Assembly: GCA_902806015.1 (NCBI GenBank) | Contig: CADCUZ010000046.1 | Span: forward strand, 1-13,122 | Reading direction: 5' to 3' | Length of the DNA: 13,122 bases | Origin: an uncultured Rubrobacteraceae bacterium | Lineage (GTDB): Bacteria; Actinomycetota; Rubrobacteria; Rubrobacterales; Rubrobacteraceae | Shown here: one piece after another, positions 1-13,122 of the stretch | Position numbering within the stretch: position 1 is the first letter of the stretch | How the letters are laid out: the number at the start of each line of letters is the position of its first letter | Program-made: the position numbers and the translations under genes | Notes under the pieces: generated by a model | Told to the model about the DNA's origin: nothing | Seen by the model: only the letters and a program-made list of their open reading frames with translations | Databases searched by the model: none

Positions 1-105
1 AGCGCTCTCTACGACGACAAGGGCAAGAAGATTCCGACCCAGCAGGTGCCGATCGCGGAGGTCGACGGAAGCTACTACGGGGTGGACTTTAGTACCCTCG
101 AGTAG
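1..105 (+). CDS. C-terminal fragment of an unidentified protein
   Basis: The first frame is open from base 1 to a TAG at 103-105 and gives the last 34 residues of a protein whose start lies outside the window. The tail contains KKIPTQQVPIAEVDGSYYG and ends DFSTLE, which is polar and beta-strand-like with no membrane segment. A strong hairpin terminator follows 33 nt later, which supports a real gene end. The fragment is too short to assign a family; a secreted or lipoprotein-type domain is possible, but that is only an impression. Confidence 0.6.
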   Translation, partial: SALYDDKGKKIPTQQVPIAEVDGSYYGVDFSTLE

Positions 106-138
106 TCACCGTTCTCAGCACTTCAGCTCTGGTCAGCA

Positions 139-170
139 AGGGGCCCCGGTTTGGAACCGGGGCCCCTCTT
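139..170 (+). terminator. Intrinsic terminator, probably serving both strands
   Basis: A perfect 13-bp stem (139-151 pairing with 155-167) closes a 3-nt loop (TGG) and is followed by CTCTT. It lies between the end of the + strand gene at 105 and the end of the minus-strand decarboxylase at 239. The near-symmetrical stem could stop transcription from both sides, although the T-run is short. Confidence 0.8.
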
Positions 171-207
171 CGTGCCGAAACGTACTTTGCAGACACCATG
201 CTTAGTG

Positions 208-225
208 ACGCCGATCAGGCGGCGT
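208..225 (-). terminator. Short hairpin after the decarboxylase operon
   Basis: ACGCCG at 208-213 pairs with CGGCGT at 220-225 around a 6-nt loop, 13 nt beyond the decarboxylase stop on the minus strand. There is no clear U-run, so it may be a 3'-end stabilising hairpin, with the stronger hairpin at 139-170 doing the termination. Confidence 0.35.
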
Positions 226-238
226 GCTGACCGGCTGA

Positions 239-1570
239 CTAGCCCTTAAGCGCTCTCTGTCCTTCCAGCACGTCCTCGGGCTTGCCGCCGGCGCGCAGCA
301 GCACGGCCTCCCCGTCGAGGAGGAGCACCTCGGCGGGCGACGGGTGGCTGAGGAAGCCGAGGTTGGAGGCGGAGTAGCCGTAGGCGCCGCTGTAGAAGAC
401 GCCTATGAGGTCGCCGACCTCGGGTTGGGCCAGGCGGATGTTGGTACCGAACGAGTCGAGCGGCGTGCAGCAGGGGCCCGCGACGGCCACGCCCTCTTCG
501 GGGACCGCCCCGTCCATGCGGGTGAGGTTCAGGAGCGGGTAGGCCTTGCGGAAGACCTGGCCCATGTTGCCGGTGGCGGTGAGGTGGTGGTTCATGCCGC
601 CGTCGGTGACCGCAAAGGTCTTGCCCCGCGTCTGTTTTACGTCCACGACGCGGGTGACGTAGAGGCCGGCGTCGGCGACGAGGTAGCGGCCCAACTCGAA
701 GAGGAAACGGCACCCTTCGAGGCGCGGGTCGGACTTGTAGCTCGAGACGAGTCCGCGTAGGCCCTCGCCGAAGCGGTCGAGGTCGAACTCGCTCGTCTTC
801 TCGAAGTAGGGGACGCCGAAGCCGCCGCCAAAGTCGAGCATCTCCAGCGGGTGACCGGCGTGGTCGGCGGCCTCTAGCGCGATCTCGAAGATGTTGCGGC
901 AGTGCTCCAGCAGCGGGTCCACCTCGAAGACCTGCGTCGCCGTGTAGACGTGGACGCCCCGCAGGACGAGACTCTCGTGGGAGAGGACCTTCCCGACCGC
1001 CTCGGCGAGGTCGGCCTGGTCGATGCCGAACTGGCCGACTGTGCCGCCCATGCGCATCCCGCTCCCCATGAGCTGGGCCGCCGGGTTGATCCTTAGTCCC
1101 ACGCCCGTCTTCTTTTCGGCCTCTCCTGCGATGGCGGACAGGCGCTGTATCTCGCCGAGCGACTCGACGTTGACGGCGTGGATGCCCTCATCGACGGCCA
1201 TCCTTAGCTCTTCGTCCGTCTTGGCGGGCCCGGCGAAGACGACGTCCTCGGGCGCGAAGCCCGCGGCCAGCGCCACGATCAACTCCCCCGAAGAGGCGAC
1301 CTCGCCGCCGGTGCCGGCCCTCGCTATGAGGGAGCACACGCCGAGGTTTGGGTTGGCCTTCAGGGAATAGGCCACCTCGGTGCCCAGAGCGTCGCGCACG
1401 CGGCGGACGCGGTCTGAGATCATCTCCGCGTGGTAGAGGTAGAAGGGCGAGCCGTAGCGCCCCGCTATCTCCGAGATCGGGACGCCGGCGGGGGCGAACT
1501 CGCCCCCCTCGACGGCGGAGCCGCCGAAGCGCGTCGCCAGGTCGTGGGCCTTATCCGTTTGTGTAAGCAC
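239..1570 (-). CDS. Fold-III PLP-dependent decarboxylase (DapDC/ODC family), carrier-protein-linked type
   Basis: This 443-residue protein has the alanine-racemase-fold decarboxylase layout used by diaminopimelate and ornithine decarboxylases. Visible motifs are SLKANPN with the PLP lysine K71, HVYTATQ (H207), the phosphate-binding GGGFG at 248-252, ELGRYLV at 292-298, GPCCTPLDSF at 365-374 with the catalytic-type Cys, and GAYGYS at 395-400. The start is GTG at 1570 behind AAGGGGAT, and it overlaps the upstream ligase by 20 nt, so translation is probably coupled. Position after a ligase and a carrier protein sets it apart from lysine-biosynthesis LysA. It resembles BtrK of butirosin synthesis, which decarboxylates glutamyl-S-carrier, and the exosortase-A-associated decarboxylases. 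The substrate is not readable from sequence. A free amino acid such as meso-diaminopimelate remains possible. Confidence 0.9.
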   Translation of the reverse strand: MLTQTDKAHDLATRFGGSAVEGGEFAPAGVPISEIAGRYGSPFYLYHAEMISDRVRRVRDALGTEVAYSLKANPNLGVCSLIARAGTGGEVASSGELIVALAAGFAPEDVVFAGPAKTDEELRMAVDEGIHAVNVESLGEIQRLSAIAGEAEKKTGVGLRINPAAQLMGSGMRMGGTVGQFGIDQADLAEAVGKVLSHESLVLRGVHVYTATQVFEVDPLLEHCRNIFEIALEAADHAGHPLEMLDFGGGFGVPYFEKTSEFDLDRFGEGLRGLVSSYKSDPRLEGCRFLFELGRYLVADAGLYVTRVVDVKQTRGKTFAVTDGGMNHHLTATGNMGQVFRKAYPLLNLTRMDGAVPEEGVAVAGPCCTPLDSFGTNIRLAQPEVGDLIGVFYSGAYGYSASNLGFLSHPSPAEVLLLDGEAVLLRAGGKPEDVLEGQRALKG

Positions 1571-3137
1571 TGCTGATCCCCTTGCGGTCTATCTTGCCCG
1601 AAGCCGTCTTGGGGAGCTCGTCCCTGACGATTATCTCCTTCGGGATCATGTACGGCGGGCCGTTTTTTATGGCGTAGCCCCGGATGGAGTCTATGGCTTT
1701 GCCGTCGTCGGCGTCTCTCAAAGAGATCACGGCGACGACGTCGTGCCCGACGGCCGGGTTTTCCACCCCGAACGCGCACGCCTCGTTGACCAGTCCCGAC
1801 GCGATGAGTAGGTTCTCGACCTCTTCGGGGCTCAGGCGGTAGCCCTGGTTCTTGATCATGGCATCCTCGCGGCCGAGAAAGTACAGGTACCCTTCCTCGT
1901 CCCGCCTGACGGTGTCCCCCGAGTAGACGACCCGCTCCACGTCCAGAAGCTCCGGCGGGGCGAGCGGGTTTGGACGGTAAGCCTTTTGCGTCGCCTCCTC
2001 GTTTCCCCAGTAGCCCATCGCCACGGTAGGGCCACGGTGGACCAGTTCCCCGGGTTCCCCGGGACCGGCCTCTCCGCCCTCCTTGTTTATGACCATGATC
2101 TCGGTGTTCGGGATGGGCTTGCCGATGCAGTTGCCCTGCTCGGGCGAAGAGCGGTGGATCTCCTCTGGTGCTAGGTACGTCGAGCGGAACGCCTCCGTCA
2201 AGCCATACATCAGGTAGATCTTGGTCCCGGCGGGCTCTAGGAGGTTCCTCAGTTCGTCCAGGTTGGCCTGCGGTATCCGGCCGCCGGTGTTGGCGAGATA
2301 GCGCAGGTGCGTGAGCGGGTTCTCCCGCAAGGACTTCGCCCCCCGGATCAGGAGCGACCACAGCGGCGGCACGCCCGTAACGCCCGTGATCTCGTGCCGG
2401 CGCAGGGCCTTCAACAAGTCCCCCGGCAACCTGGAACGCAGCAGGTACAGCGTCGCCCCCGCCCTGAGCGACGTTGTGAACTGACTCATCCCCGCGTCGA
2501 AGTTGAAGGGCAGCGCGGAGAGGATGCGATCCCCAGGCGTGTTCTCCAGGTACGTCGAGACGATCTGGGACCCCACCACCACGTTGCGCTGGCTCGTCGC
2601 GACGCCCTTGGGCATCCCCGTCGAGCCCGAGGTATACAAGATAGTCCCGAGGTCGATCTCAGAGACCCTCCTGTCTTCTCTCAAACCAGCGCCCTTGAGG
2701 GCTTCGGCGACGTCCTCGTAGGACTTCGCGGCGTCGCCTCGCGGTTTCTCGCCCCTGTAGAAGGCGGTCTGGACCGTCTTGGGCTGGAGCTCATTGAGCT
2801 TACCCGTGTCCCCGATCATGACGCGCATGTCGCAATCCTGCGCCAGGTACTCGATCTGGGGGGCCTTGAAAAGCGGGTTGACGTTGACGTAGGCGGCCCC
2901 GATGCGCGAGGCCGCGAGCATCGAAACGATCGCCTCCCACGACTTCTCGACCAGCACGCCTACCCGATCGCCGTTTCCGACGCCGGCGTCCACGAGGGCC
3001 GCTCCCAGGGCACTACTCTCCCGCTCTAAGTCCTCGTAGCTGTACTCGGCGTCGCCGTCCACGACGGCGGCTTTTTGGGGATCGCGTTCGAGAGAGTTGT
3101 GGAGGAGGTCGTGGAGGGTAAATTCCGGGCGGGGCAT
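1551..3137 (-). CDS. AMP-forming acyl/aminoacyl ligase (ANL superfamily adenylation enzyme)
   Basis: This complete 528-residue adenylate-forming enzyme should activate a carboxylate with ATP and transfer it to the phosphopantetheine thiol of the carrier encoded just upstream. Motifs occur in the usual order: P-loop TSGSTGMPKGV (169-179), PFNFDAG at the A4 position (210-216), YGLTEAF (311-317), YSGD (405-408), the hinge GREDAMIKNQGYRLSPEEVE (422-441) and LPKTASGKIDRK (508-519) with catalytic K515. The Asp in FDAG lies where amino-acid adenylation domains place the residue that binds the substrate alpha-amine, which suggests an amino-acid substrate (inference). The ATG at 3137 overlaps the carrier stop as TAATG. 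Fatty acyl-CoA ligase is a less likely alternative because of the operon partners. Exosortase-A clusters have a comparable ligase. Confidence 0.92.
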   Translation of the reverse strand: MPRPEFTLHDLLHNSLERDPQKAAVVDGDAEYSYEDLERESSALGAALVDAGVGNGDRVGVLVEKSWEAIVSMLAASRIGAAYVNVNPLFKAPQIEYLAQDCDMRVMIGDTGKLNELQPKTVQTAFYRGEKPRGDAAKSYEDVAEALKGAGLREDRRVSEIDLGTILYTSGSTGMPKGVATSQRNVVVGSQIVSTYLENTPGDRILSALPFNFDAGMSQFTTSLRAGATLYLLRSRLPGDLLKALRRHEITGVTGVPPLWSLLIRGAKSLRENPLTHLRYLANTGGRIPQANLDELRNLLEPAGTKIYLMYGLTEAFRSTYLAPEEIHRSSPEQGNCIGKPIPNTEIMVINKEGGEAGPGEPGELVHRGPTVAMGYWGNEEATQKAYRPNPLAPPELLDVERVVYSGDTVRRDEEGYLYFLGREDAMIKNQGYRLSPEEVENLLIASGLVNEACAFGVENPAVGHDVVAVISLRDADDGKAIDSIRGYAIKNGPPYMIPKEIIVRDELPKTASGKIDRKGISSAYTNG

Positions 3138-3388
3138 TAGGCGGCCTTGCCCTCCACCAGGGTGGCGATGGCGTCCACGGAGCCGAAGTTCTCCTCATCG
3201 AACTCCTCGTCCTCCACGACGATGCCGAACTCCTCTTCCAGGAAGGTCACGAGCTCGACCGTCTGCAGCGAGGTCATAACGCCGTTATCTATGAGGGGCT
3301 CGTCGTTGGCGACGTCGCGCCCGCCCGTCACGTTCTCCTGCAACCAGCCGCGTATCGCGGCCCTCGCGTCCCCGTTGTTTGCAACCAT
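3137..3388 (-). CDS. Acyl carrier protein (phosphopantetheine-binding)
   Basis: This 83-residue acidic four-helix carrier has the usual length for a discrete ACP/PCP. The attachment serine is most likely S40 in DNGVMTSLQTVELV, where the common DSL is replaced by TSL. The helix after it and the acidic stretch LEEEFGIVVEDEEFDEENF are typical of the family. Strong AAGGAGAT precedes the ATG at 3388 and overlaps the TAA of the upstream GNAT gene. The end overlaps the ligase start by one base. It is flanked by a ligase and a decarboxylase rather than by fatty-acid-synthesis genes, so its job is probably to hold an amino acid or small acid for tailoring. A 4'-phosphopantetheinyl transferase is needed and is not in the window. 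Confidence 0.92.
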   Translation of the reverse strand: MVANNGDARAAIRGWLQENVTGGRDVANDEPLIDNGVMTSLQTVELVTFLEEEFGIVVEDEEFDEENFGSVDAIATLVEGKAA

Positions 3389-3399
3389 GACGTATCTCC

Positions 3400-4602
3400 T
3401 TATCTGAGCCAGAAGCTCGCTTCGCCGTCGCCGAGGTTATACGACCAGTTGGTAAGGTCGAGTGCGGTTTTGTGCTGGTCACCGTCCGCGAACTTGGCCA
3501 GCAGGTAGTTGCGCCTTCCCTTGCGGGAAAAGAAACCCAGGCGGGCGAGGTCGCCCGGCCGGGCCGAGGTGGGGGAGTCCAGGTACCTGTAGCGGATGAT
3601 CTGGGCCCCCGTCTCCCGGAAATTCCGGGTCGTCTCCCGTAGCAGCGCCCGCGTCACATCCTGACGGCCAGGAAGGGCCATCAGGTCGAGCACGTAGCCA
3701 TCCTGGCCCTTGGAAACCGTCCTGAGCACAGCGTAACCGAGCAGCCTGCCGCCCGAGCGGACGCCGAGGACGGTCACCGGCGACTGGGGCGAGCCGGGGC
3801 CGTAGCGCCACCTCAAAAAGGTTGCGTCTTTCTCGGGGAGGCAGGGGACCACGGCGGCCACCCTCTCGAAGAGGTCGTCGAACGACTCGTCGAACCCGTC
3901 GAGCACCTCGACTTCGAGGTCGCCGCCGAAGTTCTTGCCAAGCGCCTCGTCTACCGCCCGAAGCCCACGGTTCAGGAGGATCTTGAGCGGGCCCGGTAGT
4001 GGGGCCCGCGGGCGCGGGGCTGGCGGGGCGATGTACTCCTCGGCCTCTTCGGTCTCCACCCCGAGGCGGTCCGTAATGCCGCGGGTGGGCGCGAACTGGT
4101 CCGGAAGGTTCAGGGCGCGCCTGATAGGGCCGGGGACCGGCGGCATCGGGAGCCTGGAGACGTTGAGCAGCTTCGCCGCGTAGTCCATCTCCCCGGCGAC
4201 CTTCGCCCCAAGCTTGCTCTCTATCTCGATCACCGCCGGAACCATGTCGCAGACGACGCAGTTCTGCGTGGTGCGGAAAAAGTTGCGCATAAGGGAGAGG
4301 GCCTGGAAGCCGTACCCCTCATCCACCATGTAGTCACCGGGCGTATGCGCGACGACCCGCCGCCCGTTGACCCTGTAGTACTGGGGCGTCGCCGCCAGGT
4401 GTCCTACCACCCTATCCCCGTCGAGCGCGACCCACCGGTGCACCTCGTCGGCCAGCGGGTGACCCGCGAACCATCTGTAGACGCCCGCATAGAACGCGGT
4501 ATCCCGGGTCTCGGGAAAGTAGGGGAAGGCGCGGATGCGGAGCCTGCCGACACCCTCCTCGAGCTCTGGGCTCTCCATCGGCTTGACGACGACCTTCTTC
4601 AT
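3400..4602 (-). CDS. Tandem GNAT-type acyltransferase
   Basis: This is a 400-residue protein with two GNAT-like halves. The first (about 1-145) contains the substrate-side region RIRAFPYFPETRD, the strand VALDGDRVVGHLAATPQYY and GDYMVDEGYGFQALSLMRNF, which is the acyl-donor strand and helix area. A proline-rich linker (about 150-205) follows. The second half (about 228-400) has the PEKDATFLRWRYG signature common in GNAT proteins of glycan and lipoconjugate clusters, then LLGYAVLRT and a YVLDLMALPGR strand. The frame stays open upstream to 4785, but those 61 residues are low-complexity, so the ATG at 4602 (MKKVVVKPME) is preferred despite a weak ribosome site. It is the first gene of the operon, 11 nt from the carrier gene. 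Transfer of the carrier-bound group to an amine or sugar is the inferred role. Confidence 0.82.
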   Translation of the reverse strand: MKKVVVKPMESPELEEGVGRLRIRAFPYFPETRDTAFYAGVYRWFAGHPLADEVHRWVALDGDRVVGHLAATPQYYRVNGRRVVAHTPGDYMVDEGYGFQALSLMRNFFRTTQNCVVCDMVPAVIEIESKLGAKVAGEMDYAAKLLNVSRLPMPPVPGPIRRALNLPDQFAPTRGITDRLGVETEEAEEYIAPPAPRPRAPLPGPLKILLNRGLRAVDEALGKNFGGDLEVEVLDGFDESFDDLFERVAAVVPCLPEKDATFLRWRYGPGSPQSPVTVLGVRSGGRLLGYAVLRTVSKGQDGYVLDLMALPGRQDVTRALLRETTRNFRETGAQIIRYRYLDSPTSARPGDLARLGFFSRKGRRNYLLAKFADGDQHKTALDLTNWSYNLGDGEASFWLR

Positions 4603-4735
4603 CTGCGCGGTCCCGAGAGGTCGTCGCGCTCCCTGGGCGACGCTCCCTCGCTCTTCCGTGTTTTCCCCGCCACGACCGCACGACCCCTCTGCTCTTCCAA
4701 CGACTCCCTGCCGGATGGCAGGATCCAAAGACCAG

Positions 4736-4765
4736 AGTGTAAAGGAGCGGAGACGCAAAATCCAA
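4736..4765 (-). promoter_or_regulatory. Candidate promoter for the GNAT-ACP-ligase-decarboxylase operon
   Basis: On the minus strand TTGGAT (4765-4760) and TACACT (4741-4736) are 18 bp apart. The -10 matches four of six consensus bases, the -35 only three. It would give a leader of about 125 nt before the ATG at 4602. An alternative pair, TTGTCC/GATTTT with 17-bp spacing, lies just upstream, so the exact promoter is uncertain. Confidence 0.35.
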
Positions 4766-4827
4766 ACGGGGATCGCAGGGGACAACCCGTCTCGGGGGGG
4801 TCCGGTGGGCGGATTTTCAGCCGGAAC

Positions 4828-4856
4828 TTGAAGGTTCGGCGGGTTGCCCCGATAAT
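4828..4856 (+). promoter_or_regulatory. Vegetative-type promoter for the VanW gene
   Basis: TTGAAG (4828-4833) and GATAAT (4851-4856) are separated by 17 bp, matching the housekeeping sigma consensus well. Transcription would start near 4863 and give a leader of about 60 nt that ends in the AGGAGGGT ribosome site at 4911-4918. Confidence 0.7.
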
Positions 4857-4925
4857 TAGCGCCTGCGCGTCACCGCTTGTTTGGCGAAAAGGTAGCGCGG
4901 GTCGCACTGTAGGAGGGTCGGACGT

Positions 4926-6392
4926 TTGAAGGAAATAAGCAAGGCAGGCGGGCCTCGGGCCGCCCGGAGGGCCGCGCGTGACCGTTCGAAGGCCAACGGC
5001 GGGCCGCCGCCGAGCGGTCGGTCGCGCAACCGCAAGTCGCGCTACGCCCGCAGGCGCGGGCTCGCGATCGTGGTGGCCGTCGCCGGCGTTTTTCTGCTCG
5101 GGTTTCTCGCCGTGGGCGTGCTCGTCGGCGGGGACGGCATCCAGCGCGGTGTCCGGATCGGGGACGTCAACGTCGGCGGGATGAACAAGGACGAGGCCCG
5201 GGCGGCCGTGGAGCGCAACGCCGCCGAGGCCTTCCGGCAGATCTCCTTCGGGGAGGGCCCCGACGCCGTCTCGGTTGGCGCCGATAAACTGGGCGTGAAG
5301 GTGAACGCTGACGCGGCCGTGGACGAGGCGTACTCTATCGGGCGCAGCGGCGGTCCCCTCCGCAAGGTTTCCGACCTTTTCGGCTCGTACTTCGGCGGGG
5401 CGCAGGTGGAACTGAAAGCCGGTTACGACGAGGGGGCCGCCCGCGGCGTCCTCGTCGGGCTGGCGGAAGACTTCGACCGCCAACCCCAGGACGCCACCTT
5501 CACTGTAGCCGACGGCGGCAAGGTCGAGGTCAAGGAGGCCAAGAACGGCAGGGCGCTCGACATGGGGGCGACCCTGGCGAACCTCGAAGGGGCGCTCGAG
5601 AACATGAGCGGCCGGGTGCCGCTGGCCGAGGGTAAGCCCCCAGAGCCCGAGGTCACCACGGCGGAGGTTCAGAAGTACAAGCCCGAGGAGGTCATCGGGG
5701 AGTACCAGACGGACTTCCTCTGGGACTCCAACCCCAACCGTAAATTCAACATGAAGCTCGCGGCCGGCGCCGTGGACAACACCGTCCTGAAGCCGGGCGA
5801 GACCTTCTCCTTCAACGAGCGGGCCAATTCCCTGGACTACAAGGAGGCCAAGACCTTCTCCGACGGCGGCGTCGGCATCGCCAACGGCGGCGGTCTCTGC
5901 CAGGTCTCCTCGACGCTGTACATGGCGGCCCAGTACGCGGGGCTCGAGATCGAGGAACGCCATCCGCACTACGCGGTGCTGCCGTACATAAAGCCGGGCT
6001 TCGACGCGACGGTGTGGTTCGGCGACGAGTACGGGTACGGTGTGCAAGACATGAAGTTCAAGAACACCACCGACGGCCACCTCCTCATCCGTGAGTGGGT
6101 CGACGAGAGAGGCTTCCTGAACGCCCAGATCCTCGGCCAGCCGACAGGCAAGAAGGTAAAGATGACCACCGAGAAGATTTTTGAGGACACTACCCGCGGC
6201 ATCCGGTGGGACACCTACAAGAAGGTCACCGAGGACGGCGAAGTGACCTTCAACGACCGCATCCACACCTACACCTACTCCTACAACCCGCCCCCGCCGG
6301 AGGACGGCCCGCATTACGACACCTCCGCCCCGCGGGTCTCCGGTTGGGACGACCCCGGCAACACCACCGGCTGGGCCGAAGTCCCCGAGTAG
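4926..6392 (+). CDS. Membrane-anchored VanW-family protein with peptidoglycan-binding-like N-terminal domain
   Basis: This 488-residue protein starts at TTG 4926, chosen because AGGAGGGT sits 7 nt before it. A very basic cytoplasmic tail (1-45) is followed by one membrane helix (about 46-68). The extracytoplasmic part begins with IGDVNVGGMNKDEARAAV, the usual entry to the PG_binding_4-type domain that precedes VanW (about 75-240). The VanW domain (about 259-405) carries NMKLAAGAVDN, GETFSFNE, the hallmark GGGLCQVSSTLY (321-332, C325) and ERHPHYAVLPY with two His. The tail is polar and proline/acid-rich. VanW proteins occur in vancomycin-resistance clusters and many Gram-positive genomes, but the biochemical role is not settled. 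The beta-lactamase-like gene follows after 45 nt in the same orientation, which suggests a cell-wall operon. Confidence 0.9.
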   Translation: MKEISKAGGPRAARRAARDRSKANGGPPPSGRSRNRKSRYARRRGLAIVVAVAGVFLLGFLAVGVLVGGDGIQRGVRIGDVNVGGMNKDEARAAVERNAAEAFRQISFGEGPDAVSVGADKLGVKVNADAAVDEAYSIGRSGGPLRKVSDLFGSYFGGAQVELKAGYDEGAARGVLVGLAEDFDRQPQDATFTVADGGKVEVKEAKNGRALDMGATLANLEGALENMSGRVPLAEGKPPEPEVTTAEVQKYKPEEVIGEYQTDFLWDSNPNRKFNMKLAAGAVDNTVLKPGETFSFNERANSLDYKEAKTFSDGGVGIANGGGLCQVSSTLYMAAQYAGLEIEERHPHYAVLPYIKPGFDATVWFGDEYGYGVQDMKFKNTTDGHLLIREWVDERGFLNAQILGQPTGKKVKMTTEKIFEDTTRGIRWDTYKKVTEDGEVTFNDRIHTYTYSYNPPPPEDGPHYDTSAPRVSGWDDPGNTTGWAEVPE

Positions 6393-6415
6393 CGCGATGC
6401 CTGCGGCCAGAACGG

Positions 6416-6432
6416 GCCCCGCCGAACGGGGC
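6416..6432 (+). promoter_or_regulatory. Hairpin between the VanW and serine hydrolase genes
   Basis: GCCCCG (6416-6421) and CGGGGC (6427-6432) form a 6-bp stem with a CCGAA loop. It ends 5 nt before the TTG at 6438 and contains the only G-rich segment that could serve as ribosome site for that start. It could lower translation of the second gene or act as a weak attenuator; no U-run follows. Confidence 0.35.
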
Positions 6433-6437
6433 ACCCC

Positions 6438-7937
6438 TTGAACCTTTTACCGCGCAGAAAGATGTCCTCGCGCGCCGAAACGCGGCGCAAGCGTCGCCGG
6501 CATCGGATCGGCGCCCTGGCCGTCATCCTGGTGTTCGCCGCGGGCGGCGTGTATCTCGCGGGCCAACTGCTCGGCGAGACGCCGTCCGCCGGCCCTTCCC
6601 CGCTCTCGGAGGACGGAGCCCGGTCGGAGCCCCGGCAGGATGCCGCCTCCGAACCGCGCGAAGATGGACCGGAGGCCAGAGGCGGGGAGAAGCAGAGCCA
6701 ACCCCCGCCGGAAGATGCGGCGCCCGACCCCGGGCAAAAGACCCCTGAGGCCGCCGCCTTCGTCGCGGTGGCCCCCGAGTTTCCCGGGGTGAAAGAGGAA
6801 AACGTCGAGGCCGTGTACAGGAGCAGGATGGACCCCTCGTGGGCCTCCGTCCGGTTCTCCCCGGAGGGGGAGAACAAGGACTTCGTGGTTTTCTCGCACC
6901 GCTGGGGTGAACTCTGGCAGGCCGAGAAGTCCGTCCGCGCCGACGAGCCCGACTACCCGAAAAACGATACGGTCCCGCTCGCGGGCGTCCCCAAAGATCT
7001 GCTGGATTACCTCTACGAGGAGAACCTCTTCGCCGCCGAGGTACCCGAACCCGAGCGGGAGGAGATCGGCGTCCTGCCGGACGTCGGCCCCGCGCAGACG
7101 CCGCCGGCGGAGACGACGACCGACGGCGTACCCGAGGACGAGCGGGAACGGGTCGAAGAGGTCGTCGGTAAGCTCGAAGAGCGGGTAAAGGACTACGACG
7201 GGGTCGCGGGCGTCTACGTGCGGGACCTCGACGAGGGTTTCGGCTACGGGGTGCGCGCCGACGAGACGTTTTTCTCGGCCTCGATCATCAAGGTCCCCGT
7301 CATGGTCGCCGTATACCGCAAGGTCGAGAAGGGTGACCTCAAATTTTCCCAGGAGGTCGAGCTGAAAAAAGAAGACTGGGCCGCCGGCGCCGGCTGGCTG
7401 CAGTGGGAGAAGGCGGGGACAAAGCAGACCGTGGGCGACCTCTTGCTCCTAATGATGACCCAGTCCGACAACGTCGCCACGAACGCTCTCGTACGCATGG
7501 TCGGCGGCAGGGACCACGTCAACAGGGTCGCCGAATCCCTCGGCGCGAAGGATACCCTCCTCTACCAGAAGGTCAGCAGCGAGCGGGGCGCGGTGCCCAG
7601 GCTAGACAATAGGACCACCCCGCGCGACATGGCGACCATGCTCCAGAAGATAGCCGACGGCAAGGCGGCCAACGAGAAGAGCTGCGGGTACATGATCGAC
7701 CTCATGCACACAGACGAGCTCGACTGGTGGCTGGACGCCGGCCTCCCCGACGAGGTAGACGCGGCCAACAAGGCCGGCTGGCTCTACCAGGTCTACGGCG
7801 ACGTCGGCATCGTCGAGCACGACGGCCGCCGCTACACGGTCGCCATCCTCAGCAAACACGGCTCGGCCACCGTGGACGAAGGCGCTGTGTTGATCGAAGA
7901 CCTGTCCAGGACCGTCTGGGAGTCGCAGAGCGGGTAG
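6438..7937 (+). CDS. Membrane-anchored class A beta-lactamase-related serine hydrolase
   Basis: The protein has 499 residues from TTG 6438; ATG 6462 (491 residues) is an equally possible start, since neither has a strong ribosome site. A basic tail and one helix (about 25-44) anchor it, followed by a charged Pro/Glu-rich linker (45-105). Next comes a small domain (about 106-210, YRSRMDPSWASVRF and FVVFSHRWGELWQ) of unknown function. The catalytic domain (about 233-499) shows S282-x-x-K285 in SASIIKV, SDN at 343-345 and KAG at 446-448 where class A enzymes have KTG. Spacing between these motifs is close to that of TEM. No clear ExxLN omega-loop motif is present: the region reads SSERGAVPRLDNRTTPRD. 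It may be a penicillin-interacting or peptidoglycan-acting protein rather than a resistance enzyme (inference). It is likely co-transcribed with the VanW gene. Confidence 0.88.
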   Translation: MNLLPRRKMSSRAETRRKRRRHRIGALAVILVFAAGGVYLAGQLLGETPSAGPSPLSEDGARSEPRQDAASEPREDGPEARGGEKQSQPPPEDAAPDPGQKTPEAAAFVAVAPEFPGVKEENVEAVYRSRMDPSWASVRFSPEGENKDFVVFSHRWGELWQAEKSVRADEPDYPKNDTVPLAGVPKDLLDYLYEENLFAAEVPEPEREEIGVLPDVGPAQTPPAETTTDGVPEDERERVEEVVGKLEERVKDYDGVAGVYVRDLDEGFGYGVRADETFFSASIIKVPVMVAVYRKVEKGDLKFSQEVELKKEDWAAGAGWLQWEKAGTKQTVGDLLLLMMTQSDNVATNALVRMVGGRDHVNRVAESLGAKDTLLYQKVSSERGAVPRLDNRTTPRDMATMLQKIADGKAANEKSCGYMIDLMHTDELDWWLDAGLPDEVDAANKAGWLYQVYGDVGIVEHDGRRYTVAILSKHGSATVDEGAVLIEDLSRTVWESQSG

Positions 7938-7943
7938 CGGCGC

Positions 7944-7998
7944 GCCGCCGGAGGCGGCTCGTCCGATCCCCGCTCTCGGCAAGCTTCGCATTGGACGA
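7944..7998. terminator. Hairpins between convergent genes
   Basis: GCCGCC-GGA-GGCGGC (7944-7958) forms a 6-bp stem just after the serine hydrolase stop, and TCGTCC (7959-7964) can pair with GGACGA (7993-7998) over a longer distance. The region lies between the ends of the serine hydrolase and the flippase gene, so a two-way terminator is likely. U-runs are absent. Confidence 0.45.
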
Positions 7999-8036
7999 TC
8001 GGCCAAACTTTGACCAGGCCGCGAAGCGCCGTGCCC

Positions 8037-9608
8037 TCAAGCGGCGGGACGACGCCTGAAGAGACCTGCCACGGACTTCAACTCTTCCGTGCCTAGCAGG
8101 AACGCGACGCCGAGGTAGGCGGCGAGGGAGACGCCCCCGACGGCGACGAGGACGAGGAGGCGTTGGGTGAAGTCCGAGCCCCCTCCGAGCAGGGCCGTGC
8201 CGGCGAGGGAGACGGCGTACATGGCGCCGCCGGCGGTGAGGATCTTCGCTAGGGACGTGAGGAGGTGCCGGCCGTCGATCCTGCCTATCTCCCGGCGGGT
8301 CGCCCCAAGGGCGAGGAGCGCGAGCACGGCGTAGGCGATGGAGAGGGCCAACACGACGCCTACGGCCCCAAGCCGGTAAGAGAGGCCGTAGGCGAGGGCA
8401 GCGTAGGCGAAGAGGATGCCGACGTTCAGTATGGCCGGGGTCTTCGTGTTCTGGCGGGAATAGAACGCCCGGACAAGAAAAAAGTACGCGGAGTAGCCTA
8501 GCAGCCCGACCGAGTAGGCGATCAGCAGCGTGGCCACCCTCTGGGTTGCTTCGGGGCCGAAGTTGAGGCGCTGGTAGAGCACCCCCACTATGGGCTCGGC
8601 CAGAACGACCAGCCCGACCGTCGAGGGCACCACTACGAAGACGATCGTCCTCAGCCCGAAGGAGAGGGTGTCGCGGTAGTCCTCCACATCGCCGCGCGAA
8701 TGCTTCTCTGAGAGCTCGGGCATCAGGGCCGTCGCGATGGCGACGACGAAGATGCCGTAGGGAAGGGAGAATACGGTGAACGCGTAGGTGAGCTCAGCGT
8801 ACGCCCCGAAGCCGGTTGCCAGGCGGGCGGCCAAGAGCTGAAAGCCGACAGACGCCGCCACCAGCACGACCATAGGTCCTGCCAGCCTAGCGGTGGGGAG
8901 CAGGGCCGGGTGCCCAAGCTGCGGACGCGGCCTGTAGCCGAGGGAAAGCATCGTCGGGACGAGGGCGAGCGCCATCACCGCGACGCCCACCGTCACCCCG
9001 AGGGCCAGCACGTAGACGGCGGTCTCCCTGTCGCCCTCCTGAAGAAAGAAGTAGGCGACAAACGAGGCGACGATTATGAGGTTGTTCAGGACGGGGGCGA
9101 AGGTCGGCAGGAAGAAGCGCCGGTGGGCCTGTAACACGCCGGTCGCGATGGTGCTGACCCCGTAGAAGAGCATCTGCAGGGCGAAGATCCTGAAGAGCAG
9201 CACCGCGAGGTCCGTGGTCCGCCTGGCGTCGGTGGGCGAAATGGCCCCGGAAGGGCTCCAGGCCCCGACCAGCGCCACGAGGGGTCCCGCGAAGATCACG
9301 CCGAGGAGGGTGAGAAGCGCCATCAGCGGCAGCACCAGGGTGAATAGGGCGCTCGTCAGGCGTCGGGCGTCCTCCCCGCCGTGGCTCGTCATGCGATCGA
9401 CCAGGACCGGGATGAAGATCGAGTACAGGATGCCGCCCAGGAAGAGCTCGTAGATCAGGCTCGGTAAGAGTATGGCAAGGGCGTAAGCGTCTGCCACGAC
9501 GCCTACGCCGAGGACGGCGGCCTGGGCGGAGAGGCGCACGTAGCCCGTAACCCGCGAGAGGACCGTGGCAGCGGAGATCGAGAGGATCGACCGGAGGACG
9601 CCGGTCAA
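8037..9608 (-). CDS. murJ: MurJ/MviN-family lipid-linked precursor flippase (divergent paralogue)
   Basis: This 523-residue, very hydrophobic protein has about 14 predicted helices, the usual size for MurJ, which moves lipid-linked cell-wall precursors across the membrane. Family motifs are SRVTGYVR (18-25), ADAYALA (39-45), GVLQAHRRFFLPTFAPVLNN (157-176), LIAYSVGLLGY (362-372) and FYSRQNTKTP (382-391). R19, R25 and D40 match E. coli R18, R24 and D39. The pair R52-R53 is replaced by Y53-E54, and the R270 position by a threonine near 278, so this may be a paralogue for another lipid-linked glycan. The start is the TTG at 9608: the frame continues upstream without any ATG, GTG or TTG for over 150 nt, and no strong ribosome site is seen. 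It converges with the serine hydrolase gene. Confidence 0.88.
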   Translation of the reverse strand: MTGVLRSILSISAATVLSRVTGYVRLSAQAAVLGVGVVADAYALAILLPSLIYELFLGGILYSIFIPVLVDRMTSHGGEDARRLTSALFTLVLPLMALLTLLGVIFAGPLVALVGAWSPSGAISPTDARRTTDLAVLLFRIFALQMLFYGVSTIATGVLQAHRRFFLPTFAPVLNNLIIVASFVAYFFLQEGDRETAVYVLALGVTVGVAVMALALVPTMLSLGYRPRPQLGHPALLPTARLAGPMVVLVAASVGFQLLAARLATGFGAYAELTYAFTVFSLPYGIFVVAIATALMPELSEKHSRGDVEDYRDTLSFGLRTIVFVVVPSTVGLVVLAEPIVGVLYQRLNFGPEATQRVATLLIAYSVGLLGYSAYFFLVRAFYSRQNTKTPAILNVGILFAYAALAYGLSYRLGAVGVVLALSIAYAVLALLALGATRREIGRIDGRHLLTSLAKILTAGGAMYAVSLAGTALLGGGSDFTQRLLVLVAVGGVSLAAYLGVAFLLGTEELKSVAGLFRRRPAA

Positions 9609-9873
9609 GGGGGCGCGCCGCCTTCGGCGGCTTTCCGCGCGCTCCAGCTTGCGCCCCCGCTCCCGGCACGCGACCCTTCGGCTGCTCTGGGCATTCCGCC
9701 GGGCGCTGCCCGGGGGGTATCGCGGTGCTCCCCACGGAACGATGGCGCCGGGGATGGTCCCCCGTGCGATGTTGGTTGGGGTCCGGAGGTTGAGACGCTG
9801 ATGGCTGAGAGCGAGGCCGAAGGCCGAAGCGTGCCGAGGACGGAGGCGAAGCCGGAGCGGGCTGACAAGCTCT
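9609..9873. other. GC-rich structured intergenic stretch
   Basis: These 265 nt lie between the flippase start and the binding-protein stop on the minus strand. They contain GCCGCC-TTC-GGCGGC (9617-9631), a GGCC-GAA-GGCC palindrome beside a second GAAGC (about 9818-9831), and several CGGAG/GAAGC-type short repeats near 9835-9865. Several frames are open on both strands, but the translations are Arg/Pro/Gly/Ser-rich with no domain, as expected from GC-rich non-coding DNA. It could hold terminator structures for the binding protein, the flippase leader, or an interspersed genomic repeat. Confidence 0.4.
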
Positions 9874-10701
9874 CTACGGTACCTCTTCCGGGGGGCGGCC
9901 GATCCACCTCTCGTAGATCTCCTCGTAGGTGCCGTCCTCCTTTATCTCGGCGAGCGCCTCGTTGACGGGCTCGACCAGGGGGCTCTCCTTGGGGAGGGCG
10001 ATGCCGTACTGCTCGCCGGTCGGGATGACCTCCACCAGCTCCAACTCCCCGCCCGACTCGTCCGCTTCCCTCTGCGCGGCCGGCAGGTCGTAGATCACGC
10101 CGCTCAGTACCTCGTTCTCCAGCGCGGCGAAGGCCTCCCCGATGGTCCTGTAGGTGCGAACCTCCTTGACGTCGCCGGCGTTCAGGAGATCCCCGGCCTC
10201 CGCCTGCCCCATCGTGCCGAGCTGGACGCCGAGGGTCTCCTCCGTGAGGTCGCCCGTGGCCTCTATCTCGGAGCCGCTCCGGACCACCAGCGCCTCATCC
10301 ACGTTGTAGTAGGGGTCGGAGAAGTCCACCTGCTGGCGGCGGGTGTCGGTGATAGTCATGCCCGAGATCGCCGCGTCGAACAGGTCCGAGGTGAGGCCCC
10401 GGAGTATGCTGTCGAACTGGACGTTCCTGTACTCGACCTCGAGGCCCATCCGGTCGGCGACCTCGTTCATCAGGTCTATGTCGAAGCCTTTGGGCCCCTT
10501 ACGCGGGGCGAACTCGAAGGGCGGGTAGGCGATGTCGGAAGCGACAACTATCTTGCCGTCGGCCAGGGCGGAGCTTGTGGTCTCCTCCTTATGCACGACG
10601 TCCGCCGGGGACCCGTCGCTCCCCGCGCCGCACCCCGCCGCAACAAAAAGGGCGCCCAAGACGAGCATCGCCGCAAAAAGCCTCCCGGACCACCCTGTCA
10701 C
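9874..10701 (-). CDS. ABC transporter substrate-binding lipoprotein, amino-acid (SBP family 3) type
   Basis: Read from GTG 10701 this is a 275-residue lipoprotein. A signal segment (about 7-22) ends in VAAGC with lipidated C24. The mature domain starts IVVASDIAYPPFEF and carries the family signature GFDIDL (72-77), then FDAAISGMTITDTRRQQVDFSDPYY, the usual amino-acid-contacting region with R121 as candidate carboxylate ligand, and ends TYEEIYERWIG. The frame is open up to an ATG at 10812, but that extension has no signal-peptide character and the promoter at 10784-10812 lies inside it, so the GTG is preferred; GGGAGGG lies about 10 nt before it. Polar or acidic amino acids are plausible ligands. 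No permease or ATPase gene is in the window, so it is an orphan here. Confidence 0.9.
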   Translation of the reverse strand: MTGWSGRLFAAMLVLGALFVAAGCGAGSDGSPADVVHKEETTSSALADGKIVVASDIAYPPFEFAPRKGPKGFDIDLMNEVADRMGLEVEYRNVQFDSILRGLTSDLFDAAISGMTITDTRRQQVDFSDPYYNVDEALVVRSGSEIEATGDLTEETLGVQLGTMGQAEAGDLLNAGDVKEVRTYRTIGEAFAALENEVLSGVIYDLPAAQREADESGGELELVEVIPTGEQYGIALPKESPLVEPVNEALAEIKEDGTYEEIYERWIGRPPEEVP

Positions 10702-10741
10702 CGTGAACGTTCCCTCCCGCGTCTGAGACCCGGGGCTTCCT

Positions 10742-10754
10742 CCCGTCAGGCGGG
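10742..10754 (-). promoter_or_regulatory. Small hairpin in the leader of the binding-protein gene
   Basis: CCCG-5nt-CGGG lies in the leader, about 40 nt upstream of the GTG at 10701. On the RNA it is followed by GGAGGAAG and later by a GAGAC/GTCTC pair that could enclose it. No known riboswitch consensus was recognised. Confidence 0.25.
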
Positions 10755-10783
10755 TCGGCCGGGCGTGGCGTCTCTGCACGCCA

Positions 10784-10812
10784 ATACTATTCATGCGGCC
10801 CCGCGGGGTCAA
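10784..10812 (-). promoter_or_regulatory. Promoter of the substrate-binding lipoprotein gene
   Basis: On the minus strand TTGACC (10812-10807) and TAGTAT (10789-10784) are 17 bp apart, matching the housekeeping consensus in five and four of six positions. Transcription would begin near 10777 and give a leader of about 75 nt. This rules out the ATG codons at 10812 and 10794 as starts of the lipoprotein if the promoter is used. Confidence 0.7.
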
Positions 10813-10945
10813 GGCGCCAGCGCCGTATACGTCGCTACGCCGTGCGGCGGTTCAGTTGGCGCGCTCTAGGCCGTTTACCAGGTAGAGCAGGGGTAGGCAA
10901 ATCGCCAAGTAGAAGCGGGGTTGCGGTGATTTATTTCTACCGCGA

Positions 10946-10985
10946 TTCTCCTTTTAACAGCTACCTGACAGCTACGGAAGGAGAA
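10946..10985 (+). promoter_or_regulatory. Hairpin covering the ribosome site of the integrase remnant
   Basis: TTCTCCTT (10946-10953) is a perfect complement of AAGGAGAA (10978-10985), which is the ribosome site 4 nt before the ATG at 10990. The 24-nt loop holds two direct copies of ACAGCTAC (10957-10964 and 10968-10975). Folding would hide the ribosome site in the mRNA. Confidence 0.5.
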
Positions 10986-10989
10986 ACCG

Positions 10990-11541
10990 ATGGGCGGAAA
11001 AAGGCGCGGGGCCGGTGAGGGGTCCATATACCGGCGCGAGACGTTAGGTACGTGGGGCAGTACGAGGTCGAGGAGAAACGCCGCTACGTCTACGGGCGGG
11101 ACAGGCAAGGGGTCATGACCGGGCTGAAGAAGGCCCTCGTGGTATCGGGACGCGGGCATCGCCTTCGACTCGCGGAATCTCGCTGTTGGCGAGTACATGC
11201 CCTTGTGGCTCGACTCGATAAGGGAGGCCCTCGGTCTTCGCACCTGGTAGAGGCACGAGGAGCTAACCGGCTGCACATCATCCCCCGACTCGGCACAACC
11301 AAGCTGGACGCGCTGCAGGTCAAGTCCCTCTACCGCAAAAAGCTCGGCGCTGGCCTATCTTCCACCGCCATGCGGAAGATATCCACGCCACGACCTACAA
11401 ATCGCTCAAGCAGGAGGCGCTGCGCGGTGGGCACCCGTCCCGCGCAACGTCTGCGAATCCGTTACGCCACCGAGTGCGGCGAAGGTGGCGATAGAGGCGC
11501 TGACCGGCGAACAGGTCTCATGGGCCTTGTGGGTGTCGTGA
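10990..11541 (+). pseudogene. Degraded tyrosine-integrase N-terminal region
   Basis: The ATG at 10990 behind GGAAGGAG opens MGGKRRGAGEGSIYRRE, the usual start of actinobacterial phage-type integrases. The homologous reading then jumps frame repeatedly: GQYEVEEKRRYVYGRDRQGV from 11055, then GIAFDSRNLAVGEYMPLWLD (from about 11155) ending in a TAG at 11248, then RLHIIPRLGTTKLDAL from 11268, IHATTYKSLKQEA from 11381, and RWAPVPRNVCESVTPP from 11425 to a TGA at 11541. Together these cover the arm-binding domain and most of the core-binding (SAM-like) domain, about 180 residues. The catalytic R-H-R-Y domain is missing. At least five frame changes plus a stop show long decay rather than one sequencing error. 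No att repeats or tRNA target were recognised nearby. Confidence 0.8.
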
Positions 11542-11919
11542 GAAGCGACAGGCCCCCTACGTCGAGCGACGGACCATGACGTACCCTACCAACCCAGACA
11601 AGGATGGTTCTCTAAAATCGCTTGAAAGGCTGAGGCATATCATGTTCTTCCCCAAGTTGGGGTACGGCAGTCCGAAGATAGCCGTGCTCAAGGTCAACTC
11701 GAAAACGCGGTATCCGAAGCCTTTCGAGTAGGAGCCAGAGGCCTGTAGGCGCAAGTAGAAAATGGGCAATTACGCCACAGTCCCTCGGAGAGACGCAACA
11801 GACCGCCCCAAAGACGAGACAAACTACATATTTTGGTGCATGCGGTTGTGTCGCAAAAGAGACATAATCTATCCGGACGGTATTTTTTGGCTGCTCTCAT
11901 GAGAGAGGCAGGAGGGCTC
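11542..11919. other. Gap with no supported gene, lower GC
   Basis: This stretch after the integrase remnant is visibly richer in A and T than the rest of the window. It holds a 51-codon open frame (11576-11731) without a ribosome site and other short frames on both strands with no recognisable domain. CTCTCATGAGAG (11894-11905) is a 12-bp palindrome directly before the ribosome site of the next gene. CATAAT at about 11865 could be a -10 element but has no well-spaced -35. The segment is probably remnant DNA of the lost element. Confidence 0.4.
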
Positions 11920-12111
11920 GTGGCTGTTTTTTATTGCAAGTGCAAGAGCAAAAGAAGGGTTTGGGCTGAATTCTGGTGGAAGTCGGATGAAGACGAGCAC
12001 GGATGGAGGTTCTTCGACGATCAGGAAGGAAGCGCGAGCTACGGGGAGCGCGTGACCACCTGCTCGGGGTGCGGCGAGCGGTTGGATCGTAGGATGCTGA
12101 CACCAGCGTAA
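11920..12111 (+). CDS. Small four-cysteine zinc-ribbon-like protein
   Basis: This 63-residue protein reads from GTG 11920, chosen because AGGAGGG at 11910-11916 lies directly before it; the frame is open further upstream to an ATG at 11833, but without a ribosome site. It contains C6-x-C8 in FYCKCKSK and C48-x-x-C51 in TCSGCGERLDRR, a likely single zinc-binding knuckle pair. Between them is an aromatic, acidic stretch (VWAEFWWKSDEDEHGWRFFDD). The second knuckle looks like those of rubredoxin-type ribbons. No exact family is recognised. The role could be nucleic-acid or protein binding (inference). It follows the integrase remnant and converges with the YqaE-like gene. Confidence 0.65.
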   Translation: MAVFYCKCKSKRRVWAEFWWKSDEDEHGWRFFDDQEGSASYGERVTTCSGCGERLDRRMLTPA

Positions 12112-12191
12112 ACGAGGCCGCTCGGGAAGATCGCAGGGCGCTGGTACGGTGCCCCGCGTAAGCTCCGATCGTGAAGCGCCGCTAGGGGCAT

Positions 12192-12224
12192 CGCTCGGCC
12201 CACCCAATTGGGGGCAAACGAGCG
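12192..12224. terminator. Interrupted hairpin between convergent small genes
   Basis: CGCTCG (12192-12197) pairs with CGAGCG (12219-12224), and inside it GCCC can pair with GGGC around the self-complementary CCAATTGG. It lies just beyond the stop of the YqaE-like gene and about 80 nt beyond the zinc-ribbon gene. No U-run is present, so terminator function is tentative. Confidence 0.4.
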
Positions 12225-12229
12225 TGGAG

Positions 12230-12388
12230 CTAGTATTTGGCGATGACCCATACGGCGTGGATGATGCCGGGGATGAAGCCGAGGATCGTCAGCAGGATGT
12301 TAATCCAGAAGTGCTTCCCTATCCCGACCTGCAAGAATACCCCCAGGGGCGGTAGCAGTATGGCGATCAAGATACGCAGTAAATCCAT
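12230..12388 (-). CDS. YqaE/Pmp3 family small membrane protein
   Basis: This 52-residue protein is the usual length of the UPF0057/Pmp3 family. It starts MDLLRILIAILLPPLGVFLQ (helix 1, about 4-22), has the polar turn VGIGKHFWIN, and ends with helix 2, ILLTILGFIPGIIHAVWVI (about 31-49), before AKY. The PPLGVFLQ and LGFIPGIIHA motifs are diagnostic. The ATG at 12388 has AAAGAGG 6 nt upstream; the open frame reaching 12523 is rejected because family members begin here. In yeast and plants Pmp3 relatives affect membrane potential and salt tolerance; the bacterial role is unclear. Confidence 0.9.
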   Translation of the reverse strand: MDLLRILIAILLPPLGVFLQVGIGKHFWINILLTILGFIPGIIHAVWVIAKY

Positions 12389-12545
12389 CGGAAGCCTCTT
12401 TCTGTCCGTTTGACTTCTCTTCTTACTACGCTGAACAACCCTAGCGGTTGCGAGCACCGAAGGGTCGAATTGGCTGGGCCTCGGCAGGGGCCGATTGCCA
12501 ACTTGCCTCCGAAATGCCCACATCTTGGGCCACCCCGAGACTAAC

Positions 12546-12564
12546 TGCTATATGACGTATAGCA
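12546..12564. promoter_or_regulatory. 19-bp palindromic operator candidate
   Basis: TGCTATATGACGTATAGCA is a perfect 7-bp inverted repeat with a 5-bp centre. It lies about 80 nt before the GTG of the + strand hypothetical gene and about 160 nt before the YqaE-like gene on the other strand. TTGGGC about 18 bp before TATATG (12549-12554) could make a weak promoter overlapping it. A dimeric repressor site is the likely reading (inference). Confidence 0.45.
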
Positions 12565-12642
12565 TGCATCGCTGCGCTCGGCCTGCTACGCTAATGCCGG
12601 GGATTCGGTGGTGCCCGCAGGACCAGACGAAGGGGCTTTAGA

Positions 12643-12843
12643 GTGAGGGGAACGGAAAGCGAAACAAACGAGGTTAGGGTAAGGACCGTGCGTTGGATCG
12701 AGTCGCTGTGGGAGGGTAAGAACACCACCGCAAGAGAGGAGGACCAGAAGGAAGAGGTCCTTTCGGTGTTCCGCGAGTTGGCGAGGGAGTCCAGGAGCGA
12801 GGGAGAAATCCGCGAGTACGTGCCCTGGCAACCGCTCTGGTAG
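12643..12843 (+). CDS. Small charged hypothetical protein
   Basis: The GTG at 12643 with AAGGGG 7 nt upstream opens a 66-residue frame. The product is highly charged: VRWIESLWEGK near the N-terminus, an Arg/Glu-rich helix-like middle (REEDQKEEVLSVFRELARES) and an aromatic end (YVPWQPLW). There is no signal peptide or membrane segment. A 90-codon frame lies opposite it but is Pro/Leu/Ser-rich without a ribosome site. The gene converges with the next small gene with a 21-nt gap. No family is recognised. Confidence 0.55.
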   Translation: MRGTESETNEVRVRTVRWIESLWEGKNTTAREEDQKEEVLSVFRELARESRSEGEIREYVPWQPLW

Positions 12844-12864
12844 CGGTGGGACTTCCAAGATAGG

Positions 12865-13044: not shown

Positions 13045-13072
13045 GTGATCCCCCTCCCGCTTTGGTCGGGGC

Positions 13073-13101: not shown

Positions 13102-13122
13102 GGACGTTCTCTTTGCCGCACA

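Follow-up and report, generated by a model that had tools for sequence, protein, structure and literature searches.

What do four tightly packed genes in a cell-envelope neighbourhood of an uncultured Rubrobacteraceae bacterium make, and where does their product go? The genes lie on the minus strand of the window, as we call the whole stretch of 13,122 nucleotides (nt) analysed here (contig CADCUZ010000046.1, positions 1 to 13,122), and encode a GNAT-like transferase, a carrier protein, an AMP-forming ligase and a fold-III pyridoxal phosphate (PLP) decarboxylase. From sequence comparison, we consider it probable that they form a cytosolic four-protein module by which an acidic amino acid would be loaded onto the carrier, decarboxylated there and transferred to an envelope precursor. 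A preliminary description of this DNA had claimed a four-gene operon with 11-nt, TAATG and 20-nt junctions, and all open reading frames and junctions were confirmed on the minus strand: between the GNAT start at 4602 and the decarboxylase stop at 239, an 11-nt gap separates the GNAT and carrier genes, carrier and ligase overlap by 1 nt in TAATG, and ligase and decarboxylase overlap by 20 nt.

3400..4602, minus strand: GNAT-like transferase, 400 amino acids (family and profile-profile comparison)
3137..3388, minus strand: carrier protein, 83 amino acids (Pfam PP-binding, Ser40)
1551..3137, minus strand: AMP-forming ligase, 528 amino acids, VinN-like pocket Asp214/Thr284/Arg318, motif MYGLTEAFRSTYL (NCBIfam, alignment)
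239..1570, minus strand: fold-III PLP decarboxylase, 443 amino acids, Lys71, CTPLD at 368-372 (NCBIfam, PDB comparison)

Which substrate is loaded can be approached through the ligase. The protein scores 269.8 bits against the AMP-binding family of Pfam, and compared as a whole with the PDB it finds linear gramicidin synthase on top; when just the fragment around the pocket is compared, CmiS6 and VinN rank first, and this fragment aligns to VinN ungapped through MYGxTExxR, with no gap in the loop. In this alignment Asp214 falls on Asp230 of VinN, Ala215 on Phe231, Thr284 on Ser299, Phe317 on Lys330 and Arg318 on Arg331. We take VinN Arg331 to bind the free carboxylate; its counterpart Arg318 is invariant in seven Rubrobacteria ligases, and a control AMP-ligase on the same contig as one module has neither the pocket Asp nor the Arg. 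According to the available passages of a 2024 review, the VinN loop that contains K330 and R331 is shortened by one residue and D230 holds the amino group; the VinN-type features so described, Asp230, Arg331 and the short loop, are all matched in the window ligase (Asp214, Arg318, ungapped). These pocket residues suggest an acidic amino acid as substrate, probably L-aspartate. Since a thioester of the alpha-carboxylate would leave no alpha-carboxylate to remove, the acid would have to be joined via its other carboxylate, and aspartate (or 3-methylaspartate, glutamate or diaminopimelate, DAP) fits joining through a non-alpha carboxylate.

The two partners of the ligase are consistent with such chemistry. 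The carrier exceeds the cutoff of the Pfam PP-binding family PF00550 (23.8 bits, cutoff 20.8), and its Ser40, at the site for the phosphopantetheine arm, is invariant in nine aligned orthologs; the serine stands in TSL, where DSL is usual. The decarboxylase scores 143.5 bits against PF02784, and among PDB sequences it scores 268 bits with BtrK, 189 with the next sequence (6knh, which we take to be SbnH) and 160-168 with the six best DAP decarboxylases. Around the cysteine it reads CTPLD, as against CTPED in BtrK and CTPKD in 6knh, with CESGD at this position in four Rubrobacteria LysA proteins; one row (L072), which had been cut out of frame, was dropped from the final motif comparison, the same coordinates having behaved as a Rubrobacteria decarboxylase in the tree discussed below. 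Two marks of a BtrK-type enzyme are found in the window protein: the CTPxD motif, and a sequence score that is greater with BtrK than with LysA. A paper on this decarboxylase fold, in the passages available, assigns BtrK, SbnH and MccE to one clade together with DAP decarboxylase and has BtrK act on glutamyl-S-BtrI. The logic of carrier-bound decarboxylation put forward in the preliminary description is supported by the CTPxD motif and the VinN-type pocket, at the level of sequence, and its overall interpretation in part.

We propose the following route, whose loading and decarboxylation steps are modelled on VinN-VinL-VinO and in which (i) the ligase would activate the side-chain carboxylate of an amino-dicarboxylic acid (L-aspartate is the likeliest) by adenylation, the amino group being held by Asp214 and the alpha-carboxylate by Arg318, and load the acid on the phosphopantetheine arm of the carrier; (ii) the BtrK/VinO-type decarboxylase would strip the alpha-carboxylate from the thioester-bound residue, leaving an omega-amino acyl thioester, which would be beta-alanyl-S-carrier from aspartate or gamma-aminobutyryl (GABA)-S-carrier from glutamate; (iii) the GNAT, in many relatives together with FemX-like enzymes, would hand the omega-amino acyl group over to an amine on an envelope precursor that is still in the cytosol; the stem peptide of the lipid II that the neighbouring MurJ flips is a plausible acceptor. 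Substrate and reaction order are inferred, as are transfer and acceptor, the latter two because of the GNAT similarity, the FemX-like and MurJ neighbours and the polysaccharide genes found elsewhere.

How does this scheme compare with known systems? According to the available part of a review, VinO decarboxylates 3-methylaspartate after VinN has loaded it on VinL, and the vin trio as described there resembles the module in its stand-alone AMP-forming ligase with an Asp/Arg pocket and short loop, its discrete carrier and its on-carrier PLP decarboxylase, VinO being likened to the window decarboxylase by the described reaction and not by fold. The window differs in its wall context, in two pocket residues and in having no polyketide synthase among the scanned proteins. 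Of the butirosin side-chain enzymes BtrI-BtrJ-BtrK, named as relatives in the preliminary description, BtrK shares CTPxD and is the nearest protein of solved structure to the window decarboxylase. However, BtrJ is an ATP-grasp ligase, whereas the window loader is an AMP-binding enzyme, so that the closest logic is that of VinN-VinL-VinO. The BtrJ type is exemplified by a Streptomyces decoyicus plasmid locus (L089:7617-10661), where an ATP-grasp protein, a CTPND decarboxylase and a carrier form a BtrJ/K/I-like set near a nonribosomal peptide synthetase (NRPS). The ligase/decarboxylase pair of exosortase-A clusters, the other kinship claimed, supplies the best NCBIfam models for both window proteins, but both fall below the cutoffs (556.7 of 592.35 bits for TIGR03098, ligase_PEP_1; 415.1 of 478.45 for TIGR03099, dCO2ase_PEP1). 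As exosortase PF09721 was found in 0 of the 39 genomes sampled from the class (one of 14 control genomes matched), an exosortase link is not supported for this class. DltA-DltC of D-alanylation likewise pairs an AMP ligase with a discrete carrier for an amino acid, but the window ligase reaches only 172.7 of the 559.85 bits required by TIGR01734, the module adds a decarboxylase, and no dltB or dltD model is among the matches listed.

Is the arrangement a property of this one contig? The class sample is the class of one GNAT-bearing genome and comprises 39 genomes other than the window's own, many of them metagenome-assembled genomes (MAGs) with completeness not stated, so absences are soft. 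The GNAT is present in 24 of them (E<=1e-20) and a decarboxylase ortholog (E<1e-130) in the identical set. Among 25 stretches from these 24 genomes, the order GNAT-carrier-ligase-decarboxylase is kept in 19; one has a FemX-like gene inserted between GNAT and carrier, and five end at contig edges. The 20-nt overlap of ligase and decarboxylase recurs in 20 of 22 measurable loci, the window included (starts extrapolated from alignments). Gene order and co-occurrence, like the family assignments and the pocket and motif residues, are read directly from the sequences, and the recurring overlap, the co-occurrence and the order make the operon arrangement more than chance. The preliminary description had called for a genome-context search and named a failure of the four genes to co-occur as speaking against it; what was found is co-occurrence across the class genomes, with the counts just given.

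Searched with a GNAT profile, the named genome collection yielded 13 loci; the records of 12 bear the titles Rubrobacter, Rubrobacteraceae or Actinobacteria, and the remaining locus is from a Sphaerobacter MAG. A close ligase (E<=1e-120) occurs in 24 of 396 sampled Actinomycetota genomes, namely 23 of the 24 module genomes and the more distant G171, and in a Sphaerobacter-phylum sample of 301 genomes a ligase at E<=1e-110 was found in the Sphaerobacter genome only; these surveys scored at most three (Actinomycetota) or four (Sphaerobacter phylum) first-look candidates per genome, so misses are possible. A LysA-like gene scoring apart from the module decarboxylase (E 2e-56 to 4e-44) is present in 18 of the 24 module genomes and 14 of the 15 module-free ones. 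On a LysA tree of 31 genomes the module is patchily distributed, its label needing six changes, at least three of them forced by well supported branches.

To describe the module outside Rubrobacteria, we chose 14 loci by hand (L084, L087, L088, L090-L092, L138-L145) from 134 ligase and 332 decarboxylase records plus genomes G009 and G171, so that the following counts are not frequencies. The motif MYGLTEAFRSTYL, common to the window ligase and TIGR03098-type ligases of Proteobacteria and others, is carried by 11 of the 14 ligases, all of which adjoin a decarboxylase of the same fold, including the divergent Burkholderia enzyme of L091; 11 read TEAFRSTYL, and two read TECKR, retaining the Asp and an equally long loop (L142 and L144, the latter with an adjoining decarboxylase). 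The L143 ligase has MTECCTR, a longer loop and no Asp, with no decarboxylase beside it. Carriers were found by profile at 11 of the 14 loci (the L139 copy is weak and further off), and L087 has a carrier-like open reading frame, seen by eye, after the decarboxylase. The transferase varies: a GNAT-like gene directly precedes the ligase in L084, L087, L088 and L145, two Paracoccus modules have a serine-acetyltransferase-like gene there, and in Shinella (L090) the GNAT-like, carrier, ligase and decarboxylase genes follow in the window's order, the GNAT being distantly homologous. This variation makes ligase, carrier and decarboxylase look like the constant part, combined with an exchangeable transferase. 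The pairs of Sinorhizobium meliloti, Aureimonas and the actinomycetote G171 exceed the TIGR03098 and TIGR03099 cutoffs and share MYGLTEAFRSTYL and CTPLD; the Shinella pair falls under the cutoffs, and in Sphaerobacter the ligase is over (621.3 bits) and the decarboxylase under. To judge from these loci, the module looks like an uncharacterised system wider than exosortase clusters. For the pathway, called undescribed in this lineage in the preliminary description, we found no described function; it is not specific to the lineage, as the Shinella order illustrates.

Some of these loci deserve description in their own right. In the Sphaerobacter MAG, the GNAT (47% identical; L013:1705-2691) lies on one contig and the ligase (55%) and decarboxylase (65%) on another (L092:7382-10211). 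An Azospirillum plasmid (L143:7471-13860) encodes a carrier and the Asp-less ligase and, 3 kb on, a match to the Rubrobacteria GNAT profile (E 3e-14); a decarboxylase was not found there. In L142 a carrier gene directly precedes a ligase with FDYG and TECKRCTYL, and a decarboxylase was likewise not found; this ligase is possibly a loader whose product needs no decarboxylation.

The transferase step would fall to the GNAT, which we take to be the transferase of the module. Two Pfam GNAT families score just below their cutoffs with the window protein (22.6 of 25 and 20.0 of 20.7 bits), and each matches 17 of the 21 members of the GNAT alignment (E<=0.01). Residues 4-157 of the window GNAT, the N-terminal domain, show distant homology to an alphaproteobacterial protein whose gene precedes that of the ligase or carrier. 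Pairwise comparison scores weakly (33 bits), and hhalign of the two profiles gives 90% probability (E 1.4e-6, 141 columns); the corresponding values are 0.9% with the FemX-like profile and 0.09% with the decarboxylase profile.

Where the product goes is best judged from the neighbourhood, in the window and in its relatives.

1..105, plus strand: VanW2, C-terminal end of a second VanW-like gene (tblastn, 65% over 29 amino acids)
140..166, strand not assigned: perfect 12-bp inverted repeat with a 3-nt loop (read by eye; a pattern scan did not list it)
4926..6392, plus strand: VanW/PG_binding_4 protein, divergent from the operon, frequent neighbour (Pfam, locus comparison)
6438..7937, plus strand: class A beta-lactamase-like protein, frequent neighbour (Pfam, locus comparison)
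8037..9608, minus strand: MurJ lipid II flippase (TIGR01695, 312.4 bits, cutoff 235.6)

As the preliminary description had said, the neighbours are cell-envelope genes, and a scan of ten window proteins gave no match to exosortase, aminoglycoside or NRPS genes, apart from the resemblance of the ligase itself to NRPS adenylation domains. The typical block of the class runs MurJ, beta-lactamase-like, VanW, module, VanW2, with variations; VanW2 is the usual downstream neighbour at many loci, MurJ lies on 17 of the 25 stretches, and a mannosyltransferase-like gene (PMT) follows VanW2 in four. MurJ was also found in eight module-free genomes, and at the five such loci fetched (a 16-kb stretch each) none of the block genes accompanies it. 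A FemX-like gene directly follows the decarboxylase in 10 of the 25 stretches (the G039 copy has an internal stop), and 14 of the 24 genomes with the module possess close FemX-like genes. Four such proteins were scanned and all exceed the Pfam FemAB cutoff; one, compared with the PDB, has the Staphylococcus aureus lipid II:glycine glycyltransferase and FemX as its best matches. FemX-like genes stand in or beside the module in many Rubrobacteria, but the window has none, nor a relic of one (best E 1.4 in the gap between GNAT and VanW, 0.23 in the whole window). In genome G027 a 3' piece of a FemX-like gene lies just upstream of the GNAT (L068:13252-13428), probably a relic of a lost neighbour; together with the lack of a match in the window's nearest relatives, it suggests loss. 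The FemX-like and MurJ neighbours favour a peptidoglycan precursor as acceptor. The proposal that the product decorates a wall or surface glycan is borne out as far as the wall context goes; the destination may be peptidoglycan, a glycan or a lipid.

Several observations weigh against the route proposed here. We found no described activity for any member of these families. At the pocket, Phe231 and Lys330 of VinN are replaced by Ala215 and Phe317, so that the substrate may be aspartate, glutamate or another dicarboxylate, and the L142 ligase has the Asp and TECKR with no decarboxylase found. Outside Rubrobacteria the motif is not uniform: among 13 decarboxylases, counting the BtrJ-type one of L089, CTPxD is seen in nine, CTSID in three and CSRAD in one; a 17-row decarboxylase tree has long branches and fork support of 85/76 and leaves the window protein unplaced relative to BtrJ-type and LysA rows. 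Six of the 24 module genomes have no LysA-like match, so that a LysA-like role is possible in some genomes. The GNAT has no PDB relative by sequence (one chance match, E 1.4), the five outside GNAT-like proteins all escaped a simple search with the Rubrobacteria GNAT profile, and none of the 38 members of the alphaproteobacterial GNAT-like family has a Pfam match. A kinship of the GNAT with FemX is not supported, no similarity being detectable (the hhalign value of 0.9% given above). No FemX-like match was found in eight of the 24 module genomes, which include the nearest relatives of the window; the module-free G016 and G026 (of 15) also lack one, and contigs may be missing. Finally, the alphaproteobacterial relatives adjoin polysaccharide genes.

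This last point leads to an alternative that we regard as possible, if somewhat doubtful: the same carrier chemistry would serve a surface polysaccharide or teichoic-acid-like polymer, with the product as an N-acyl group on an amino sugar instead of in peptidoglycan. The S. meliloti and Aureimonas modules lie among glycosyltransferase genes, the Shinella module near a VpsF-family polysaccharide gene, and glycosyltransferase family 61 genes adjoin both Paracoccus modules. GNAT paralogs in G003 and G029 are near sulfatase-family genes, and the one such neighbour that was scanned has lipoteichoic acid synthase as its best NCBIfam model, far under the cutoff (78.5 of 970 bits); the sulfatase-family neighbours of the G029 paralogs are related to one with such faint LtaS likeness, so that a teichoic-acid-like acceptor is conceivable, and the sulfatase-family genes and the polysaccharide clusters elsewhere favour another polymer. 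However, the main Rubrobacteria locus has MurJ, VanW/PG-binding, beta-lactamase-like and often FemX-like genes, and no glycosyltransferase is among the scanned window proteins, though the PMT-like gene occurs in the four stretches mentioned. In G029, VanW2, GNAT, VanW and sulfatase-family genes also recur off the main locus (L130:5815-12130 and L131:6667-18148, on chromosome-sized and 205-kb contigs).

An aminolipid as product, with the carrier-bound group N-acylated or passed to a lipid, appears unlikely. It would suit the best NCBIfam model of the carrier, the ornithine-lipid acyl carrier protein NF052616, but the 49.3 bits scored are far below the 130 required and the FemX-like and MurJ neighbours argue for another destination; the OlsH/OlsI paper describes, in the available passages, a GH3-like enzyme, and its text does not mention an acyl carrier. 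Least probable, in our view, is that the decarboxylase is a second free-standing enzyme for DAP or another amino acid, the ligase being of an ordinary acyl-CoA type and the carrier one for fatty acids. The genomes without a LysA-like match, the similarity to LysA (280.4 bits against the LysA model, cutoff 297.9) and the likeness of the ligase to AMP-forming fatty-acid ligases could be read in this way, but the decarboxylase has CTPLD and not CESGD and is closer to BtrK, most module genomes have their separate LysA-like gene, and the Asp/Arg pocket is missing from the control AMP-ligase.

If decarboxylation on the carrier with transfer to an envelope precursor is correct, what would be new? Such chemistry is already known from antibiotic pathways, and the ligase and decarboxylase families have been named; new seem to be a cross-phylum module with an exchangeable transferase, the pocket-based substrate prediction and the conserved position at a wall locus. 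The open-licence literature searched yielded no function for the TIGR03098/TIGR03099 families and nothing usable on the Rubrobacter wall type, and the matches listed from it did not mention beta-alanine in peptidoglycan cross-bridges. Families named only by their exosortase neighbourhood would gain a concrete chemistry (substrate class, pocket residues, a 44-Da loss on the carrier), and families of this type would be tied to envelope synthesis outside exosortase clusters. Should the product enter peptidoglycan, the module would provide a carrier-fed, tRNA-free route to cross-bridge residues. We would go further only as a speculation that is more doubtful still than the surface polymer: part of the Rubrobacteria might build cross-bridges without aminoacyl-tRNA, the carrier delivering a decarboxylated, beta-alanine-like amino acid to GNAT/FemX in place of the FemAB route, and the module, named mostly for its exosortase link, might serve Actinomycetota, Sphaerobacter and Proteobacteria generally for attaching omega-amino acids to their cell surfaces. 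A distant FemAB (35-39% identical) is present in 13 of the 15 module-free genomes versus three of the 24 module genomes (Fisher p 5.7e-6, uncorrected for kinship). Against a replacement stand these three genomes (G002, G033 and G034), which keep it alongside the module, the missing kinship correction and the six changes on the LysA tree.

Minor features remain. The inverted repeat at 140..166 is likely a terminator that separates the operon from VanW2, the two being convergent. The window has no Rfam match above the gathering score and no tRNA gene. A 611-amino-acid open frame antisense to VanW (4599-6434, minus strand), without a family match, is most likely spurious. Beyond MurJ lies a gene for a family-3 solute-binding protein, and to its right (10875-13122) only short open frames occur. 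Elsewhere, a conjugative plasmid of Rhizobium gallicum (L144:7440-11936) carries in a row genes for a GNAT, a decarboxylase, the VinN-like TECKR ligase, a carrier and ectoine synthase.

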